Source: Acidimicrobiia bacterium (GTDB lineage: Bacteria; Actinomycetota; Acidimicrobiia; Acidimicrobiales; AC-14). From it: a DNA stretch of 64,000 nucleotides. This document shows positions 9,951-44,884 of this stretch, in pieces (the first letter of the stretch is position 1; the number at the start of each line of letters is the position of its first letter). The stretch covers positions 1-64,000 of the forward strand of contig JAHFUR010000009.1 of the NCBI GenBank assembly GCA_023264995.1, read 5' to 3'. The notes beneath the pieces are model-generated. The model searched no databases. It worked only from the letters and a program-made list of their open reading frames with translations, and was not told where the DNA came from. The translations under genes and the position numbers were made by a program.

Positions 9951-10328
9951 GTGAACCTGAACAACGTCATGCTGGGTTCGGAGGATCCGAGGGCCCTGGG
10001 TGCCTTCTACGGGAAGATCCTCGGTGCCCCCGACCCGGACTGGAGCGACGAGGCCAACGGCTGGTTCGCCTTCAAGGCGGGCGACGGCAGCCTGGCCGTC
10101 GGGCCGCACAGCGAGGTCAAGGGCCGCAGCCCGGAGCCGGCGCGGATCATGATGAACTTCGCCGTCGGCGACGTGAAGGCGGAGTTCGAGCGCATCCGGG
10201 CCCTTGGCGTCGAGGTCGTCGCCGAGCCCTACGACGCCGGCGGCGGCATGTACATGTGCACCTTCGCCGACCCGGACGGCAACTACTTCCAGCTGGCCCC
10301 GCCCTGGGACCCGCCCGAGGCCGGTTAG
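9951..10328 (+). CDS. VOC-family (glyoxalase-like) protein
   Basis: A 125-residue single VOC module: NNVMLGSEDPRALGAFYGKI, FKAGDGSLAVGPHSEV, IMMNFAVGDVKAEFERIRAL and the C-terminal metal-side motif MCTFADPDGNYFQLAPP. GTG 9951 has a good ribosome site (AAGGAG, 7 nt). The final beta strand with DPDGN is well preserved, so it is likely intact; substrate unknown. Its stop overlaps the stop of the convergent MFS gene by a few bases. Base composition is back to the very GC-rich norm here. Confidence 0.8.
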   Translation: MNLNNVMLGSEDPRALGAFYGKILGAPDPDWSDEANGWFAFKAGDGSLAVGPHSEVKGRSPEPARIMMNFAVGDVKAEFERIRALGVEVVAEPYDAGGGMYMCTFADPDGNYFQLAPPWDPPEAG

Positions 10329-11602
10329 GCGGCGACGATCACCTCGGGGGCCTCGCCGCCGGCCGGGGCCCCTTCGCCGGCCCGCCGGCGGAGGCCGACC
10401 CGTGACGCCGCGGCCACCGCGGCCGCCAGGCTGATGGCCCCACCCAGGCCCAGGCCGAAGCGCGGCCCCCACGCCTCGGAGATCCAGCCGAGGAGGGGGC
10501 CGCCCACGGGCGTGCTGCCCAGGAACAGCAGGCCGTAGAGGGCCATGACCCGGCCCCGCATAGCCGGGTCGGAGCCGAGCTGCAGGGTGGTGTTGGCCGT
10601 GGCCAGGAAGAGCATGACGGCCATGCCGGTGGGCACGAGGAGCACGCACGTCAGCCAGGCCGTCGGCGCCACCGAGGTGGCCAGCAACAGGGCGCCGAAG
10701 GCGATGCCCGCGCCGATCAGTACCCGGCGGGTGGGCCGGGCCCGGCTGGCCGCGTAGAGCGCGCCGGTGAGCGACCCCAGCGACATGAGCGACGTGAACA
10801 GGCTGTACAGGCCGGCGCCGCCCGAGAAGGTGAACTTGGCCAGCAGGGGCAGCACCACGATGAAGTTGAACCCGAAGAGGCCGAGCACGGCGACGAGGAA
10901 CAGGGTGGAGCGCAGGGTGGGGTCAGCCCACACGTAGCGCAGGCCGGCCCGCACCTCGCCCCGCTGGCGCTCGCTGCGCTCCCGCCGGTACAGCTCCTCG
11001 GGGCGCATGGCAATGAGGGCGGCGATCACGGCCAGGAACGAGATGGCGTTGGCCAGGAACGCCGGCGCGATCCCCAGGGTGGCGATGATCACGCCGGCCG
11101 CCGCTGGGCCAAGGATGCGCCCGCTGTTGTACATGGCGCTGTTGAGGCCCACGGCGTTGGGCACGTCCTCGGGGCCGACCATCTCGATGACGAACGACTG
11201 CCGGGTGGGCATGTCGACCATGGTCACCACCCCGAGCAGGAAGGCCAGCACGTAGACCATCCACAGCTCGACGGTGTGGGTGGCCACCAGGGCGAACAGG
11301 GCCAGGGCCAGGAGGGCGCCGGCCAGCTGGGTGACGACGAGCAGCTTGCGCTTGTCGCAACGGTCGGCCAGCAGGCCGCCCCACAGCCCGAAGAAGAGCA
11401 TGGGCACGAACTGCAGGGCGACGGTGATGCCCAGGTCCACACCGCTGCCGGTGAGGTTCAGCACCAGCCAGCTCTGGGCGACCGTCTGCATCCAGGTGCC
11501 ACTGACCGAGATCAGTTGACCGATGAAGAACAGCCGGTAGTTACGGATGTGCAGCGATCGGAACGTGCGGGCCCCGAACGCCCGCAGGTCGGCCCGGCTC
11601 AC
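10325..11602 (-). CDS. MFS exporter (EntS/MFS_3-like)
   Basis: A 425-residue inner-membrane transporter, predicted 10-12 membrane helices. N-terminal FRSLHIRNYRLFFIGQLIS and TWMQTVAQSWLVLNLTGS are typical of MFS_3/EntS-type exporters; the loop between helices 2 and 3 reads WGGLLADRCDKRKLL, a variant of the GxxxDRxGRR signature. NSAMYNSGRILGPAAAGVI marks the second signature. GTG start. It lies downstream of the MarR regulator, separated only by one copy of the intercistronic repeat, so it is probably a MarR-controlled efflux pump. Confidence 0.85.
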   Translation of the reverse strand: MSRADLRAFGARTFRSLHIRNYRLFFIGQLISVSGTWMQTVAQSWLVLNLTGSGVDLGITVALQFVPMLFFGLWGGLLADRCDKRKLLVVTQLAGALLALALFALVATHTVELWMVYVLAFLLGVVTMVDMPTRQSFVIEMVGPEDVPNAVGLNSAMYNSGRILGPAAAGVIIATLGIAPAFLANAISFLAVIAALIAMRPEELYRRERSERQRGEVRAGLRYVWADPTLRSTLFLVAVLGLFGFNFIVVLPLLAKFTFSGGAGLYSLFTSLMSLGSLTGALYAASRARPTRRVLIGAGIAFGALLLATSVAPTAWLTCVLLVPTGMAVMLFLATANTTLQLGSDPAMRGRVMALYGLLFLGSTPVGGPLLGWISEAWGPRFGLGLGGAISLAAAVAAASRVGLRRRAGEGAPAGGEAPEVIVAA

Positions 11603-11670
11603 TGGGCCACGCTGGCGTTGAGAGCGCGGCCCAGTGAGGGCTCGATGGGCCGGCCTCCCGGGCCGGTCAC
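11599..11670 (-). repeat. Single copy of the intercistronic hairpin/mini-ORF element (marR to MFS)
   Basis: The first 42 nt from the marR stop (plus 11669 down to 11628) match the nirB-nirD repeats at 39 positions. The element starts on the marR TGA and ends on the MFS GTG. It contains hairpin 1 (CCGGCC-CGGGA-GGCCGG) and hairpin 2 with a perfect 9-bp stem CACTGGGCC/GGCCCAGTG (11628-11636 with 11600-11608) that includes the MFS start codon. A 23-residue mini-ORF (GTG 11670, beginning MTGPGGRPIEPSLG and ending SVAQ) overlaps marR and MFS through GTGA at both ends. Confidence 0.75.
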
Positions 11671-12128
11671 TCCTCCTCCAGCAGCCGTTCGAAGACCACG
11701 GCCGCCCGTTCGAGCGCGGCCAGGTCGTCAGGGCTGAGGTCGCGGAAGCGCTCGGCCAGGTAGGCGTCCTTCTGCTGGCGACTCTCCTCGAGGAAGCTGA
11801 GGCCGGCCGCCGTGGCCTCGACCCGGGCCACCCGCCGGTCGGTCTGGTCGACGGTGCGGCTCACCAGCCCCAGCTCCTCGAGGCAGGCCACGATCTTGGT
11901 CATGGTCGGCGGTTTGACCCGCTCCGCCCCCGACAGCTCGCCCAGGGTCAACGGCCCCAGCCGCTCCACGCTGGACAGCGTGGCCAGCTGGGAGGGCGAC
12001 AGTTCGCCTGGGAGCTGGGTCCGGAGGCGTCGCGCCAGGCGGGTGACGACCAGGCGCAGGCGAGAGGCCAGTTCGGCCTCGGCCGTGTTCGAGGCAGTGG
12101 CGGTGGCGGTGGCAGGGGAGACGCTCAT
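11667..12128 (-). CDS. MarR-family transcriptional regulator
   Basis: A 153-residue winged-helix regulator. Seen: an N-terminal dimer helix (LASRLRLVVTRLARRLRTQL), the DNA-binding helix-turn-helix LTLGELSGAERVKPPTMTKI, the wing with QTDRRVARVEATAAG (the DRR motif), and a C-terminal dimer helix. MarR proteins usually repress a divergent or downstream efflux gene and release on ligand binding. It is followed by the MFS exporter and diverges from phhB over a short AT-rich spacer with a CTAATTAG palindrome. Confidence 0.88.
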   Translation of the reverse strand: MSVSPATATATASNTAEAELASRLRLVVTRLARRLRTQLPGELSPSQLATLSSVERLGPLTLGELSGAERVKPPTMTKIVACLEELGLVSRTVDQTDRRVARVEATAAGLSFLEESRQQKDAYLAERFRDLSPDDLAALERAAVVFERLLEEE

Positions 12129-15372: not shown

Positions 15373-17151
15373 TCAGTGCCCGGGCCGGCGCCGGCCCGGC
15401 CGCTGGGCAACAGAGGCGGGTAGACCACGCCACGACAGGCCGACCAGGACGAACCCGCAGGCCACCAGGGCGAGAGCCACCCGGGCCGGCCCGGCGACAT
15501 TGCTGCCGGTGCGGGAGAGGAGGCCGACGCGCAGCAGGGACGCCAGCGGCGCGGTCACCCGGAACGGCGTCTGGGCTACCCGACCCCCGCCGACCACGCT
15601 CACCCGGATGGTATGCGCCCCCGCCGGGGTGTTGGCCGGCACGGTGACCGTGAGGCTGAAGGTGCCGTTGGCGCCGGCGACCGCGGTACCGAGGAGCACC
15701 GGGTCGCTGAACAACTCGGCCCGAAGGGCGCTCCCGGGTGGGAAGCCGCTCCCCGTGAGGGTGGTGGACTGACCGGGCGCGACCGACGGCGGGGTGGCCC
15801 GGACCGAAGGCGGGGCCGTCGTGGTCGTGGTCGTGGTGCCGGCAACCGTCGTCGAGGTGGTCGACGACGTGGTTGTCGAGGTCGACGAGGTTGTCGAGGT
15901 CGAGGTCGACGTGGTTGTCGAGGTCGACGTGGTCGTCGAGGTCGACGAGGTCGACGAGGTGGTGGTTGACGTTGAGGTCCGCGTCGTCGAGGTCGAGGTC
16001 GAGCTCGAGGTGGTGGTCGGTGACGTCGTCGTGGTCGTCGGTGGCGCAATGGTGGTCGTGGTGGGGGCGACGGTGACCGACGTCGAGGTTGACGACGAAG
16101 GGGGTGCCACGGTCGTGCTCGTGGTCGACGTGGATCCGCCGGGCAGCGTGGTTGAGGTCGAGGTGGACGAGGTCGAGGTGGACGAGGTCGGCCCCGGCAC
16201 CGTGGTCGTGGTCGACGTGGGAGTAGTGGACGTCGGTGGCGTCGAGGTGGTGCTCGTCGACGAGCTAGTCGTCGACGAGCTGGTCGTGCCCGTCGGCACG
16301 GTGGTCGAGGTCGACGACGTGCTCGTGGTGCTCGACGTCGAGGTGGTGGAGCCGGTCGGCACCGTGGTCGACGTTGAGCTGGTCGAGGTCGACGACGTGC
16401 TGGTGGGCGGGGCCGTGGAGCTGGTCGAGGTGGGCGGCACGGTGGTCGGGGGGAAGGTCGTCGTCGTGGTGGTGGAGGTCGTCGAGCCCGTGATCGTGAC
16501 CACGTTCGACCCGTTGCAGGCCAGCGTGGCGGGTGCGTTGTTGGCGTCGCCGCCGTAGACGATCGCCCAGTGGTAGGTGCCGGCCGACGCCGGCGCGAAG
16601 TCGCCCGAGGTGGCCAGCCCGGTCACGTCGACGACGTTGGCCGACATGAAGACCTCGGCAGTGCAGGCCGCATCGCTGAAGAGCCGGAACGTCATGGTCC
16701 CGGTCGGCGTGTAGGAGAACAGCAGGCTCCCGGTGTCCCGCACCACGGTGCCCTGAGGGCCGCCGGCCGAGGGGTTGCCGAAGATGGACGGGGCCCGCTT
16801 GGCGATGGTCATGGAGAAGGTCTGGCAGCCAGGGGTCCCCAGACCGTTGCTGGCGCACACGGTGGTCGGCCCGAACGTGCCCGTCGCCGAGGGCGACCCG
16901 GCCAGGATGCCGCCGCCGTTCATGGTCAACCCTGGCGCGAAGGCGCCGGCGGAGAGCGAGAACGTGGGCGCCGGCTGGGCCGGGGTGGCGGTGAACTGGT
17001 GGACGTACAGGTTGCCGACGGTGCCGTTCAGCGGCGGGGGGCTGGTGATGGTGGGCGTGGTCTGGGCCGTGGCCGGGAGGCCGACGCCCAGTGACCAGGC
17101 CCCGACCATCCCGGTTATGGCAACCAATAGCCCGCGCCGTCGCCCGTCCAC
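15373..17151 (-). CDS. Cell-wall-anchored Thr/Ser-rich surface protein with sortase-like signal
   Basis: A 592-residue exported protein. Residues 1-30 form a signal peptide (basic MDGRRR, hydrophobic core, cleavage near ATAQ). A putative Ig-like/cadherin-like domain (PPPLNGTVGNLYVHQF) and a second beta domain with VYGGDANNAPATLACNGSN follow. A Thr/Ser-rich, mucin-like stretch of about 220 residues leads to a C-terminal IPT-like domain (VAPGQSTTLTGSGFPPGSAL). The end carries LLSRTGS, a hydrophobic helix and an Arg-rich tail, a non-canonical LPXTG-type sorting signal. GTG start has a strong ribosome site (GGGGGAGG). Confidence 0.78.
   Translation of the reverse strand: MDGRRRGLLVAITGMVGAWSLGVGLPATAQTTPTITSPPPLNGTVGNLYVHQFTATPAQPAPTFSLSAGAFAPGLTMNGGGILAGSPSATGTFGPTTVCASNGLGTPGCQTFSMTIAKRAPSIFGNPSAGGPQGTVVRDTGSLLFSYTPTGTMTFRLFSDAACTAEVFMSANVVDVTGLATSGDFAPASAGTYHWAIVYGGDANNAPATLACNGSNVVTITGSTTSTTTTTTFPPTTVPPTSTSSTAPPTSTSSTSTSSTSTTVPTGSTTSTSSTTSTSSTSTTVPTGTTSSSTTSSSTSTTSTPPTSTTPTSTTTTVPGPTSSTSTSSTSTSTTLPGGSTSTTSTTVAPPSSSTSTSVTVAPTTTTIAPPTTTTTSPTTTSSSTSTSTTRTSTSTTTSSTSSTSTTTSTSTTTSTSTSTTSSTSTTTSSTTSTTVAGTTTTTTTAPPSVRATPPSVAPGQSTTLTGSGFPPGSALRAELFSDPVLLGTAVAGANGTFSLTVTVPANTPAGAHTIRVSVVGGGRVAQTPFRVTAPLASLLRVGLLSRTGSNVAGPARVALALVACGFVLVGLSWRGLPASVAQRPGRRRPGH
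15826..16480. repeat. Imperfect tandem repeats encoding the Thr/Ser-rich linker
   Basis: A long run of variations on GTCGAGGTCGACG (plus strand) encodes S-T-S-T-T-style repeats in the surface protein. The units are short and degenerate, and the low-complexity DNA makes slippage and assembly error plausible. It is purely in-frame on the minus strand. Confidence 0.8.
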
Positions 17152-41717: not shown

Positions 41718-41774
41718 CGGGAGTTCACACAGTGGCAACGGCCGGCACACATGCGGTTGCTTCACTGGACGGAC

Positions 41775-44348
41775 ATGGCCTCACAACAGGACCGCAGGAC
41801 CCTCGTCGTCGCGGGCAACGGGATGGTCGGGCACAAGCTGCTCGAAATTCTCGTCGAACGGGGTGCCACCGCGGAGTGGGACCTGGTCACGTTCTGTGAG
41901 GAGCGCCGCCCGGCCTACGACCGGGTCGGCCTCAGCTCGTTCTTCAGCGGGACGAGCGCCGACGAGCTGTCGATGGTGGCCGAGGGCTTCTTCGACCAGC
42001 TCGGGCTCACCGTCCACCTGAGCGACGCAGTGGTGTCGATCGACCGGGCCGCCGGCGAGGTCGTGTCGGCCCAGGGCCGGCGGGTCGCCTACGACGCCCT
42101 GGTCCTGGCCACCGGTTCGTACCCGTTCGTGCCCCCCATCGCCGGCAACGACGCCCCCGGCTGTTTCGTTTACCGGACCATCGACGACCTGGAGGCCATC
42201 CGGGAGTACGCCGCCGGTTGCCAGACCGGCGCCGTCGTCGGCGGCGGCCTGCTGGGCCTGGAAGCGGCCAACGCTTTGCGCAACCTCGGCCTGACGACCC
42301 ATGTCGTCGAGTTCGCCGACCGGCTCATGCCCGTGCAGGTCGACGACGGCGGCGGGTCGGTCCTGCGCCGGCGCATCGAGGACCTCGGCGTGGCCGTCCA
42401 CACCGGCATGGCCACCACCGAGATCCTGGCCGACGAGGCCGGGCACGTCGCCGGCATGCGGTTCAAGGAGGGCGACGACCTCCCCGTGGGCATGGTCGTG
42501 TTCTCCGCCGGCATCCGCCCTCGCGACCAGCTGGCGCGTGACGCCGGCCTGGCCATCGGCGAGCGGGGCGGCGTGGTCGTCGACGAGGCCTGCCGCACCT
42601 CCGACCCGAGGATCTTCGCCGTCGGCGAGTGCGCGTTGTACGCCGGCCGCATCTTCGGCCTGGTCTCGCCGGGCTACCAGATGGCGCGGGTGGCGGCCGA
42701 CCGCATCCTGGGCGGCGAGGCCACGTTCACCGGTGCCGACATGTCCACCAAGCTCAAGCTGATGGGCATCGACGTCGCCAGCTTCGGCGACGCCTTCGCC
42801 ACCGGCGAGGGCTGCGAGGCCATCACCTACCGCGACCCGGTGGCCAACGTCTACAAGCGCCTGGTCCTCGGCCCGCCCGACCGCCGGGGCGACCGGGCCG
42901 TCGCCGGCGGCATCCTGGTCGGCGACGCCACCGTGTACCAGACCCTGCTGCAGATGTGCCGGGGCGACATGCCGACCCCCCGGCACCCCGAGGAGCTCAT
43001 CTTCCCGGCCAGCTCCGGCTCGGCCACCCCCGCGGTCGGCGTCGGCGCGCTCTCCCCGGCGGCGATGGTCTGCTCGTGCAACAACGTCGACAAGGGCACC
43101 ATCTGCGCCGCCGTCGCCGCCGGCTGCGACAACGTCGGCGCCATCAAGAAGATCACCAAGGCCGGTACGGGGTGTGGCGGGTGCGTCCCGCTGGTCACCG
43201 ACATCATGCGCGACGAGCAGCGCAAGGCCGGCATCGTCGTCCTCAACACCCTCTGCGAGCACTTCGCCTACTCCCGCCAGGAGCTCTTCGACATCGTGCG
43301 CGTGTCGCGGATCACCTCGTTCTCCGAGGTGTTGACCGCCCACGGGACGGGTGAGGGCTGCGAGATCTGCAAGCCGGCGGTGGCGTCGATGCTGGCGTCG
43401 CTGGCCAACGGCCACATCCTCGACGGCGAGCAGGCCGCCCTGCAGGACACCAACGACCACTTCCTGGCCAACCTCCAGCGCGACGGCACCTACTCGGTCG
43501 TGCCCCGGGTCCCCGGCGGCGAGATCACGCCCGACCAGCTCATCGCCCTGGGCGAGGTGGCCAAGGAGTTCAGCCTCTACACCAAGATCACCGGCGGCCA
43601 GCGCATCGACCTGTTCGGCGCCCGGGTCGACCAGTTGCCCCACATCTGGCGGAAGCTGATCGACGCCGGCATGGAGTCCGGCCACGCCTACGGTAAGGCC
43701 CTGCGCACGGTGAAGTCCTGCGTGGGCCAGACGTGGTGCCGGTACGGCGTGCAGGACTCCACCGCCCTGGCCATCGACCTGGAGCTGCGCTACCGCGGCC
43801 TGCGCGCCCCCCACAAGCTCAAGGGCGCGGTGTCCGGCTGCACCCGCGAGTGCGCCGAGGCCCAAGGGAAGGACTTCGGCGTCATCGCCACCGAGAGGGG
43901 CTGGAACGTCTACGTCGGCGGGAACGGTGGCATGCGGCCCCGCCACGCCGAACTGCTGGCGGCCGACCTCGACCGGGAGGCAGTGTTCCGGTACCTCGAC
44001 CGGTTCCTCATGTTCTACGTGCGCACCGCCGACCGGCTCGAGCGCACCTCGGTCTGGCTCGACAAGCTCGACGGCGGCATCGAGTACCTGCGCCGGGTCG
44101 TCATCGACGACGTCCTGGGCATCTGTGCCGAGCTCGAAGCCGACATGGCCCGCCACGTCGAGACCTACGAGTGCGAGTGGAAGGCGGTCGTCGACAACCC
44201 CGAGCGGATGGAGCGGTTCCGCACGTTCGTCAACTCCGACGAGCCCGACCCCAACGTGGTCTTCGTCACCGAGCGGGGCCAGCCCCGGCCCGCCTACTTC
44301 CACGAGAAGCCGGACCCCGCCCTGCTGGCCATCGGCGCCAAGCCATGA
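41775..44348 (+). CDS. nirB: Assimilatory nitrite reductase large subunit
   Basis: An 857-residue siroheme enzyme reducing nitrite to ammonium with NAD(P)H. Order: N-terminal FAD/NAD(P) oxidoreductase (LVVAGNGMVGHKLLE, LATGSYPFVPPI, GAVVGGGLLGLEAANAL); BFD-like [2Fe-2S] domain with Cys433, Cys435, Cys467 and Cys470; ferredoxin-like sulfite/nitrite reductase half-domain; then the [4Fe-4S]-siroheme site with Cys649, Cys655, Cys689 and Cys693. All cofactor ligands are intact. ATG 41775 is preferred over ATG 41751. Its stop is the first base of the intercistronic repeat array before nirD. Confidence 0.95.
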   Translation: MASQQDRRTLVVAGNGMVGHKLLEILVERGATAEWDLVTFCEERRPAYDRVGLSSFFSGTSADELSMVAEGFFDQLGLTVHLSDAVVSIDRAAGEVVSAQGRRVAYDALVLATGSYPFVPPIAGNDAPGCFVYRTIDDLEAIREYAAGCQTGAVVGGGLLGLEAANALRNLGLTTHVVEFADRLMPVQVDDGGGSVLRRRIEDLGVAVHTGMATTEILADEAGHVAGMRFKEGDDLPVGMVVFSAGIRPRDQLARDAGLAIGERGGVVVDEACRTSDPRIFAVGECALYAGRIFGLVSPGYQMARVAADRILGGEATFTGADMSTKLKLMGIDVASFGDAFATGEGCEAITYRDPVANVYKRLVLGPPDRRGDRAVAGGILVGDATVYQTLLQMCRGDMPTPRHPEELIFPASSGSATPAVGVGALSPAAMVCSCNNVDKGTICAAVAAGCDNVGAIKKITKAGTGCGGCVPLVTDIMRDEQRKAGIVVLNTLCEHFAYSRQELFDIVRVSRITSFSEVLTAHGTGEGCEICKPAVASMLASLANGHILDGEQAALQDTNDHFLANLQRDGTYSVVPRVPGGEITPDQLIALGEVAKEFSLYTKITGGQRIDLFGARVDQLPHIWRKLIDAGMESGHAYGKALRTVKSCVGQTWCRYGVQDSTALAIDLELRYRGLRAPHKLKGAVSGCTRECAEAQGKDFGVIATERGWNVYVGGNGGMRPRHAELLAADLDREAVFRYLDRFLMFYVRTADRLERTSVWLDKLDGGIEYLRRVVIDDVLGICAELEADMARHVETYECEWKAVVDNPERMERFRTFVNSDEPDPNVVFVTERGQPRPAYFHEKPDPALLAIGAKP

Positions 44349-44546
44349 CCGGCCCGGGAGGCCGGTCCATCGAGCATTCACTGGGCCATCCCTCGAAGAG
44401 GGTGGACCAGTGACCGGCCCGGGAGGCCGGTCCATCGAGCATTCACTGGGCCATCCCTCGAAGAGGGTGGACCAGTGACCGGCCCGGGAGGCCGGTCCAT
44501 GAGACATTCATTGGGAGGCACGCCCGAAGGGCGTGTGGACCAATGA
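44345..44546 (+). repeat. Three tandem copies of an intercistronic hairpin element between nirB and nirD
   Basis: Units at 44346-44410 and 44411-44475 are identical (65 bp); the third (44476-44542) shares its first 25 bases and then diverges. Every unit begins TGACCGGCCCGGGAGGCCGG, giving hairpin 1 (CCGGCC-CGGGA-GGCCGG). Hairpin 2 closes on the next start codon: CACTGG...CCAGTG in units 1-2 and CATTGG...CCAATG in unit 3, with tip stems CCCTC-GAA-GAGGG or CACGCCC-GAA-GGGCGTG. The array starts exactly on the nirB stop and ends on the nirD ATG. A related single copy lies between marR and the MFS gene. Confidence 0.9.
44345..44546 (+). other. Chain of three overlapping mini-ORFs in the repeat array
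   Basis: Each unit encodes a short frame: ATG 44345-44413 and GTG 44410-44478 (22 residues, MTGPGGRSIEHSLG...KRVDQ), then GTG 44475-44546 (23 residues, MTGPGGRSMRHSLG...GRVDQ). Neighbouring frames overlap by GTGA, and the outer ones overlap the nirB stop and nirD start by ATGA. Ribosomes could therefore pass from nirB to nirD by repeated stop-start coupling. Whether the peptides are stable or functional is unknown. Confidence 0.5.
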
Positions 44547-44884
44547 CGATGTTGGTCTCCAAGGTCTGGGTCGACATCTGCCCCCTCGACAAGCTCATCC
44601 CCGGCCGGGGCGTCTGCGCGCTGGTCGGCGGGCTCCAGGTCGCCGTGTTCCGTATCGCCGGCGAGGAGATCTACGCCATCTCCAACTTCGACCCCTTCAG
44701 CGGGGCGTTCGTCTTGTCGCGGGGCATCGTCGGCTCCCGGGCCGAGCGGCTCAAGGTGGCGTCGCCCATCTACAAGCAGAGCTTCGACCTGGTCACCGGC
44801 GTCTGCCTCGACGACGCCACCCGGTCGGTGCGGACCTTCGAGGTGCGCGTCGCCGGCGGCATGGTGCAGGTCGCCAGTCCGTGA
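44543..44884 (+). CDS. nirD: Nitrite reductase small subunit
   Basis: A 113-residue Rieske-fold protein of the NirD type: VWVDICPLDKLIPGRGVCAL, VAVFRIAGEEIYAISNFDPF and SPIYKQSFDLVTGVCLDD. As in NirD generally, the Rieske Cys/His cluster ligands are absent (no CxH motifs). It partners NirB. ATG 44543 overlaps the last mini-ORF stop by ATGA; ATG 44549 is a possible alternative. It overlaps the ferredoxin/anchor gene by GTGA. Confidence 0.92.
   Translation: MTMLVSKVWVDICPLDKLIPGRGVCALVGGLQVAVFRIAGEEIYAISNFDPFSGAFVLSRGIVGSRAERLKVASPIYKQSFDLVTGVCLDDATRSVRTFEVRVAGGMVQVASP

Follow-up and report, generated by a model that had tools for sequence, protein, structure and literature searches.

The stretch of DNA analysed here (the window) comprises 64,000 nt of contig JAHFUR010000009.1 from an Acidimicrobiia bacterium of an uncultured actinobacterial lineage and contains, on its minus strand, a gene for a MarR family regulator followed by a gene for an MFS transporter (Table 1). 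The gap between the two genes is filled by exactly one unit of a repeat, which lies between the marR stop codon TGA (11669-11667) and the MFS start codon GTG (11602-11600). The initial annotation had seen in this gap, running from stop to start codon with GTGA at both ends, the same element as between the nitrite reductase genes of the window, and this was borne out: GTGA flanks the unit on either side (11670-11599, minus strand) and 39 of the 42 bases counted from the marR stop match the nir copies (inverted pair I3, 93%). The nir junction carries three tandem units (44345-44546), in which neighbouring units have a DTGA (D = A/G/T) in common and the right end of the third is ATGA, not GTGA. 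Elsewhere in the window, a low-complexity stretch of GTCGAGGTCGACGTGGT-like repeats (15778-16503) dominates the list of direct repeats.

Table 1. Repeat units, their parts and the adjoining genes in the window.
Feature	Position	Strand	Remarks	Match
Repeat unit of 68 nt with flanking GTGA, marR–MFS gap	11599..11670	-		covariance model, 76.6 bits
Mini-ORF of the marR–MFS unit	GTG(11670-11668)...TGA(11601-11599)	-	peptide VTGPGGRPIEPSLGRALNASVAQ	
Hairpin 1	11650..11666	-	CCGGCC-CGGGA-GGCCGG, core nearly invariant	
Hairpin 2	11599..11637	-	TCACTGGGCC...GGCCCAGTGA; MFS start codon GTG inside 3' arm	
MarR family regulator, upstream gene	11667..12128	-	stop TGA overlaps mini-ORF start	Pfam PF01047
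MFS transporter, downstream gene	10325..11602	-	start GTG overlaps mini-ORF stop	Pfam PF05977, PF07690
NirB-type nitrite reductase large subunit	41751..44348	+	upstream of nir array	Pfam PF01077, PF03460, PF07992
nir unit 1, 65 nt	44345..44413	+	ATGA left, GTGA right	
nir unit 2, 65 nt	44410..44478	+	identical to unit 1	
nir unit 3, 68 nt	44475..44546	+	divergent; GTGA left, ATGA right; compensated stem TCATTGG...CCAATGA	
NirD-type Rieske protein	44543..44884	+	downstream of nir array; ATG overlaps last mini-ORF stop	Pfam PF13806

A palindromic 20-mer of the element occurs four times exactly in the window, and five times with up to three mismatches against 0.17 expected. A pattern search of the whole host genome (3.8 Mb, 81 contigs) gave 54 matches at up to two mismatches versus 2 for a reversed-pattern control, so that the element is, as had been proposed, a dispersed family, with about 50-55 copies in this genome. 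A covariance model, from which the combined alignment of all unit lengths was left out (its 3' end is misaligned), returned 59 matches in the host (a number that includes some palindromic copies matched on both strands), roughly 29 and 37 in two congeneric sister species, 6 in one other family member, 1 in another and none in the remaining family members tested. Nearly all order-level relatives had no match, and a 22-mer searched with one mismatch in 296 genomes drawn from the class (the sister species lying outside the draw) matched the host alone. An exact scan with a 24-mer core over 84,980 GTDB species, at one genome per species and possibly excluding the host's own records, gave matches in three MAGs only, whose labels are Acidimicrobiales, Acidimicrobiia and Actinomycetes, and in no mycobacterial record. 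Since matches are confined to the host, a few relatives and these three MAGs, the element is a lineage-restricted family. Its dispersal is recent, as unlinked array units can be found that differ at 1 nt in 65. Arrays consist of 1-4 units, mostly of 50-68 nt; the smallest copies (the second site of L001, at 1500 on the reverse strand, L040 and L086; 23, 29 and 20 nt) contain hairpin 1 plus a few bases but retain DTGA on either side and a length of 2 modulo 3. A few left flanks bear an extra CCAG, so that some of the single copies probably arose by reduction of an array.

The units sit in gene junctions, oriented with the genes and bounded by DTGA. Judging the best coding frame by GC3 minus GC2 at 73 loci, we found that in 63 the upstream frame stops at the left TGA of the element, which gives the element the direction of the flanking genes, and that a coding frame continues downstream in 64. 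The link to gene junctions is thus confirmed, and the alternative that the initial annotation had itself envisaged, a common GC-rich palindrome placed without regard to junctions, is excluded. The left flank is GTGA at 45 of these loci, ATGA at 26, TTGA at 2 and CTGA at none, whereas among ordinary TGA stops of the window C precedes 22 of 54 (0/73 versus 22/54; P about 3e-17, a value that counts loci as independent although the copies share descent and the counts are therefore not independent).

Each unit forms a small open reading frame in register with its neighbours. Reading from the left DTG, the in-frame stop falls exactly on the next DTGA in 82 of 100 units, and the unit lengths (68, 65, 62, 59, 50, 44, 29 and 23 nt) are all 2 modulo 3 and step by multiples of three, as expected of a unit that overlaps its neighbours by 4 nt on either side. 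The rule holds for nearly all, not all, units (53 of the 59 with hairpin-defined right ends); a detector of right ends that relied on the hairpin only mis-called some of them (L093, for example), and frame-based calls were accordingly used for the main counts. Irregular units of 69 and 66 nt read through into a neighbouring unit, the joint length being again 2 modulo 3 and the register restored. In 54 of the 73 loci the chain of overlaps leads to a gene with its best coding frame beginning at the coupled DTG, and in 10 further loci the mini-ORF continues in frame as part of the downstream gene, to which it adds an MTGPGGRS-like N-terminus; the remaining 9 do not fit, being out of frame or having no downstream gene. 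Such in-frame fusions include the same gene in two species (L045 and L095), which from inspection by eye we take to be dihydroorotate dehydrogenase-like, and further copies at the second site of L022 and at L029, L033, L037, L046, L048, L083, L084 and L103. Outside the palindrome-encoded VTGPGGR the peptides are variable, and no excess of third-position changes is seen among them; for these two reasons we reject a peptide function for now. It is the open frame that is kept, and the peptide is probably irrelevant.

The consensus of a unit reads D-TGA-CCGGCC-CGGGA-GGCCGG-TCCA-variable linker-GCATTCACTGG...CCA-G-TGA. Its left half is an almost invariant palindrome that begins at the stop codon and varies so little that covariation says nothing about its pairing. 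In the right half a stem forms, at most 18 bp long, with TCAY joined to RTGA in its outermost pairs, which places the start codon of the next gene within the stem. In the 68-nt class (24 units), 90% of the cells of the right half can pair, and sliding the partner by 1-3 columns lowers this to 27-44%; the covariation score is 0.164 against 0.086 +/- 0.009 after shuffling, a value reached by 0 of 500 shuffles, and changes on both sides of a pair occupy 33 cells, where shuffled versions have 11 and slid controls 5-8. The base pair at the start codon is C-G in 19 sequences and U-A in 3, alongside the swap from GTGA to ATGA. A single-sequence prediction for the marR–MFS copy (-58.9 kcal/mol, z -3.3) contains hairpin 2, and in it the sequence of hairpin 1 pairs partly with other bases. 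At E 0.1, none of six loci matched an Rfam covariance model. The probable role of the hairpins is in mobility or in the adjustment of re-initiation; hairpin 2 may act as a signal for mobility, as a brake on translation, or in both ways.

Comparison with element-free relatives shows what the junctions look like when empty. At 10 of 11 gene pairs, with about 30 empty sites (orthology being defined by the best tblastn match only), the relatives have a bare 4-nt DTGA stop/start overlap in place of the element. The nirB-nirD junction is AAGCC-ATGA-CGATG in one sister species (G001) and AAGCC-ATGA-CCGTG in another (G002), versus AAGCC-ATGA-[three units]-ATGA-CGATG in this genome; a clpS-like pair has GAAC-ATGA-TTCG when empty and GTGA-[unit]-GTGA-TTCG when filled. 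Similar empty sites occur at what we take, mostly from reading the sequences by eye, to be argJ-argB, pyrC-carA, FHA-PP2C, clpS-like, udg-tsaE and livM-livG pairs, and at two others. Two pairs depart from this: at rseP-ispG the relatives have no 4-nt overlap, and at FHA-PP2C it is missing from three of them. These comparisons also bear on the earlier statement that the element couples marR to its MFS exporter. That the two genes are coupled through it can fairly be supposed; that it created the coupling cannot, because in six relatives marR and MFS overlap directly at a bare GTGA or ATGA, and the element is better said to keep an existing coupling. As the bases at the left and right flanks are only weakly associated (Fisher P 0.07), the target duplication may be either TGA or DTGA.

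Taken together, we consider it highly probable that the element is a non-autonomous mobile repeat that inserts at translational-coupling junctions and preserves the coupling. The target would be a pre-existing 4-nt DTGA stop/start overlap between co-directional operon genes, and insertion, presumably by the transposition activity of a helper, would leave DTGA on both flanks of the unit. The upstream stop would then overlap the start of a mini-ORF of typically 17-23 codons, whose own stop would overlap the downstream start, so that a ribosome ending the upstream gene could re-initiate on the mini-ORF and then on the next gene. Because re-initiation could pass through the mini-ORF, which would be translated, insertion would be nearly neutral and the coupling preserved. 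Tandem multiplication would follow, probably by unequal exchange, with the chain of overlaps kept at each step. As regards the helper, IS200/IS605-derived palindromic elements have hairpins at their ends and, beside the left one, a short fixed target, as does our element. They differ in that here there is no space for a guide sequence between the left target and hairpin 1, and in their transposase: the Y1 (IS200/IS605-type) transposase PF01797, the only helper looked for, is absent from the host genome while control genomes were positive, which rules it out as the helper.

Other readings account for part of these observations. The element might be a dispersed cis-regulatory RNA cassette under selection, in which hairpin 2 buries the start codon until the upstream ribosome arrives. 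This agrees with the covarying stem, in which the TGA and the RTG start codon are both included and C-G is replaced by U-A, and with some insertions that are common to sister species with diverged bodies. But the host genes have no function in common, the orthologous junctions of sister species are plain overlaps, Rfam gave no family, and tandem copies together with nearly identical unlinked ones point to spread. We regard such a cassette as improbable in its own right; a regulatory role could be a secondary effect of a mobile element. Less probable still, and largely contradicted, is an ordinary palindromic repeat of REP/MITE type that inserts anywhere, with only the junction copies surviving and the open frame a by-product of GC-richness. 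The element is indeed small, palindromic, tandem and dispersed, and open frames are frequent in GC-rich DNA; an accidental frame, however, leaves unexplained the 2-modulo-3 lengths and the stop on DTGA, and neither the lack of CTGA on the left nor the 4-nt overlaps at empty sites would be expected. Finally, a chance palindrome, for which the GC-rich genome and the palindromic nature of the 20-mer might speak, is refuted by the counts in the genome, the window and the relatives, and we give it practically no credence.

For the mobile repeat that we favour, the closest likeness is to the mycobacterial interspersed repetitive units (MIRUs), which underlie the standard typing of tuberculosis strains and whose target was reportedly named DTGA by Supply and colleagues in 1997. 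How MIRUs move, and why they are located at overlapping codons, is to our knowledge still open. They are apparently mobile, insert at start codons with an internal ORF coupled at -4 nt and affect the target gene minimally (PMC12548453); their small ORFs overlap the contiguous ORFs in the same orientation, and they are described as having no dyad symmetry (PMC4473831); they measure 46-101 bp and occupy 41 loci in H37Rv (PMC3914561). Our element shares with them short units dispersed over tens of loci, variable tandem arrays, orientation with the genes, a small ORF with 4-nt overlaps to neighbouring ORFs, and apparent mobility, with the start codon of a coupled gene as the place of insertion. 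It differs in host (Acidimicrobiia instead of Mycobacterium) and in its covarying right hairpin and fixed left palindrome. Since all points tested agree except dyad symmetry, which is clearly present, we would class it as a MIRU-like variant and not as a MIRU, an assignment made against the descriptions of MIRUs rather than a MIRU sequence. A search of the open-access literature, subscription papers lying outside it, found no earlier report of MIRU-like elements outside mycobacteria. Repeats of the REP, BIME, ERIC and RUP type are likewise short, palindromic, dispersed and do not encode a transposase; we know of no description of them as mini-ORFs in register with their neighbours or at DTGA overlaps.

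The argJ-argB junction holds a 65-nt unit in this genome and, in sister species G002, two tandem 104-nt units of unrelated sequence. This 104-nt family (L151, L152) reads GTGAGTGGGCACGCCGGCCGGGCC...CAGGAGAGATC-GTGA and is open in frame, 2 modulo 3 in length and bounded by GTGA; its pattern, at up to three mismatches, has 13 matches in G002 and 1-2 in two congeners. That an unrelated MIRU-like family occupies the same junction in a sister species suggests that such elements have repeatedly found a niche in coupling junctions. In another family member (G003), the ATGA of argJ-argB is followed by about 220 nt of unrelated, GC-rich inserted sequence (L153), which makes this junction look like a hot spot. 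It is conceivable, if rather unlikely, that such junctions host a general class of mobile elements in Actinomycetota, in which several unrelated families (the present element, the 104-nt family and MIRU) have converged on insertion at DTGA and a coupled mini-ORF, and that the present element recognises the tetramer by its pairing with the TCAY arm of the right hairpin.

With this element, a second family of the kind is available from another actinobacterial class. Its copies are young, its empty sites precise and its structure covarying, so that the target of insertion, the boundaries and the constraint on the frame can be measured. Gene pairs that carry 0, 1 or 3 inserted mini-ORFs at the same junction are natural replicates for termination-reinitiation. 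The element can apparently spread through operons while translation from gene to gene remains unbroken.
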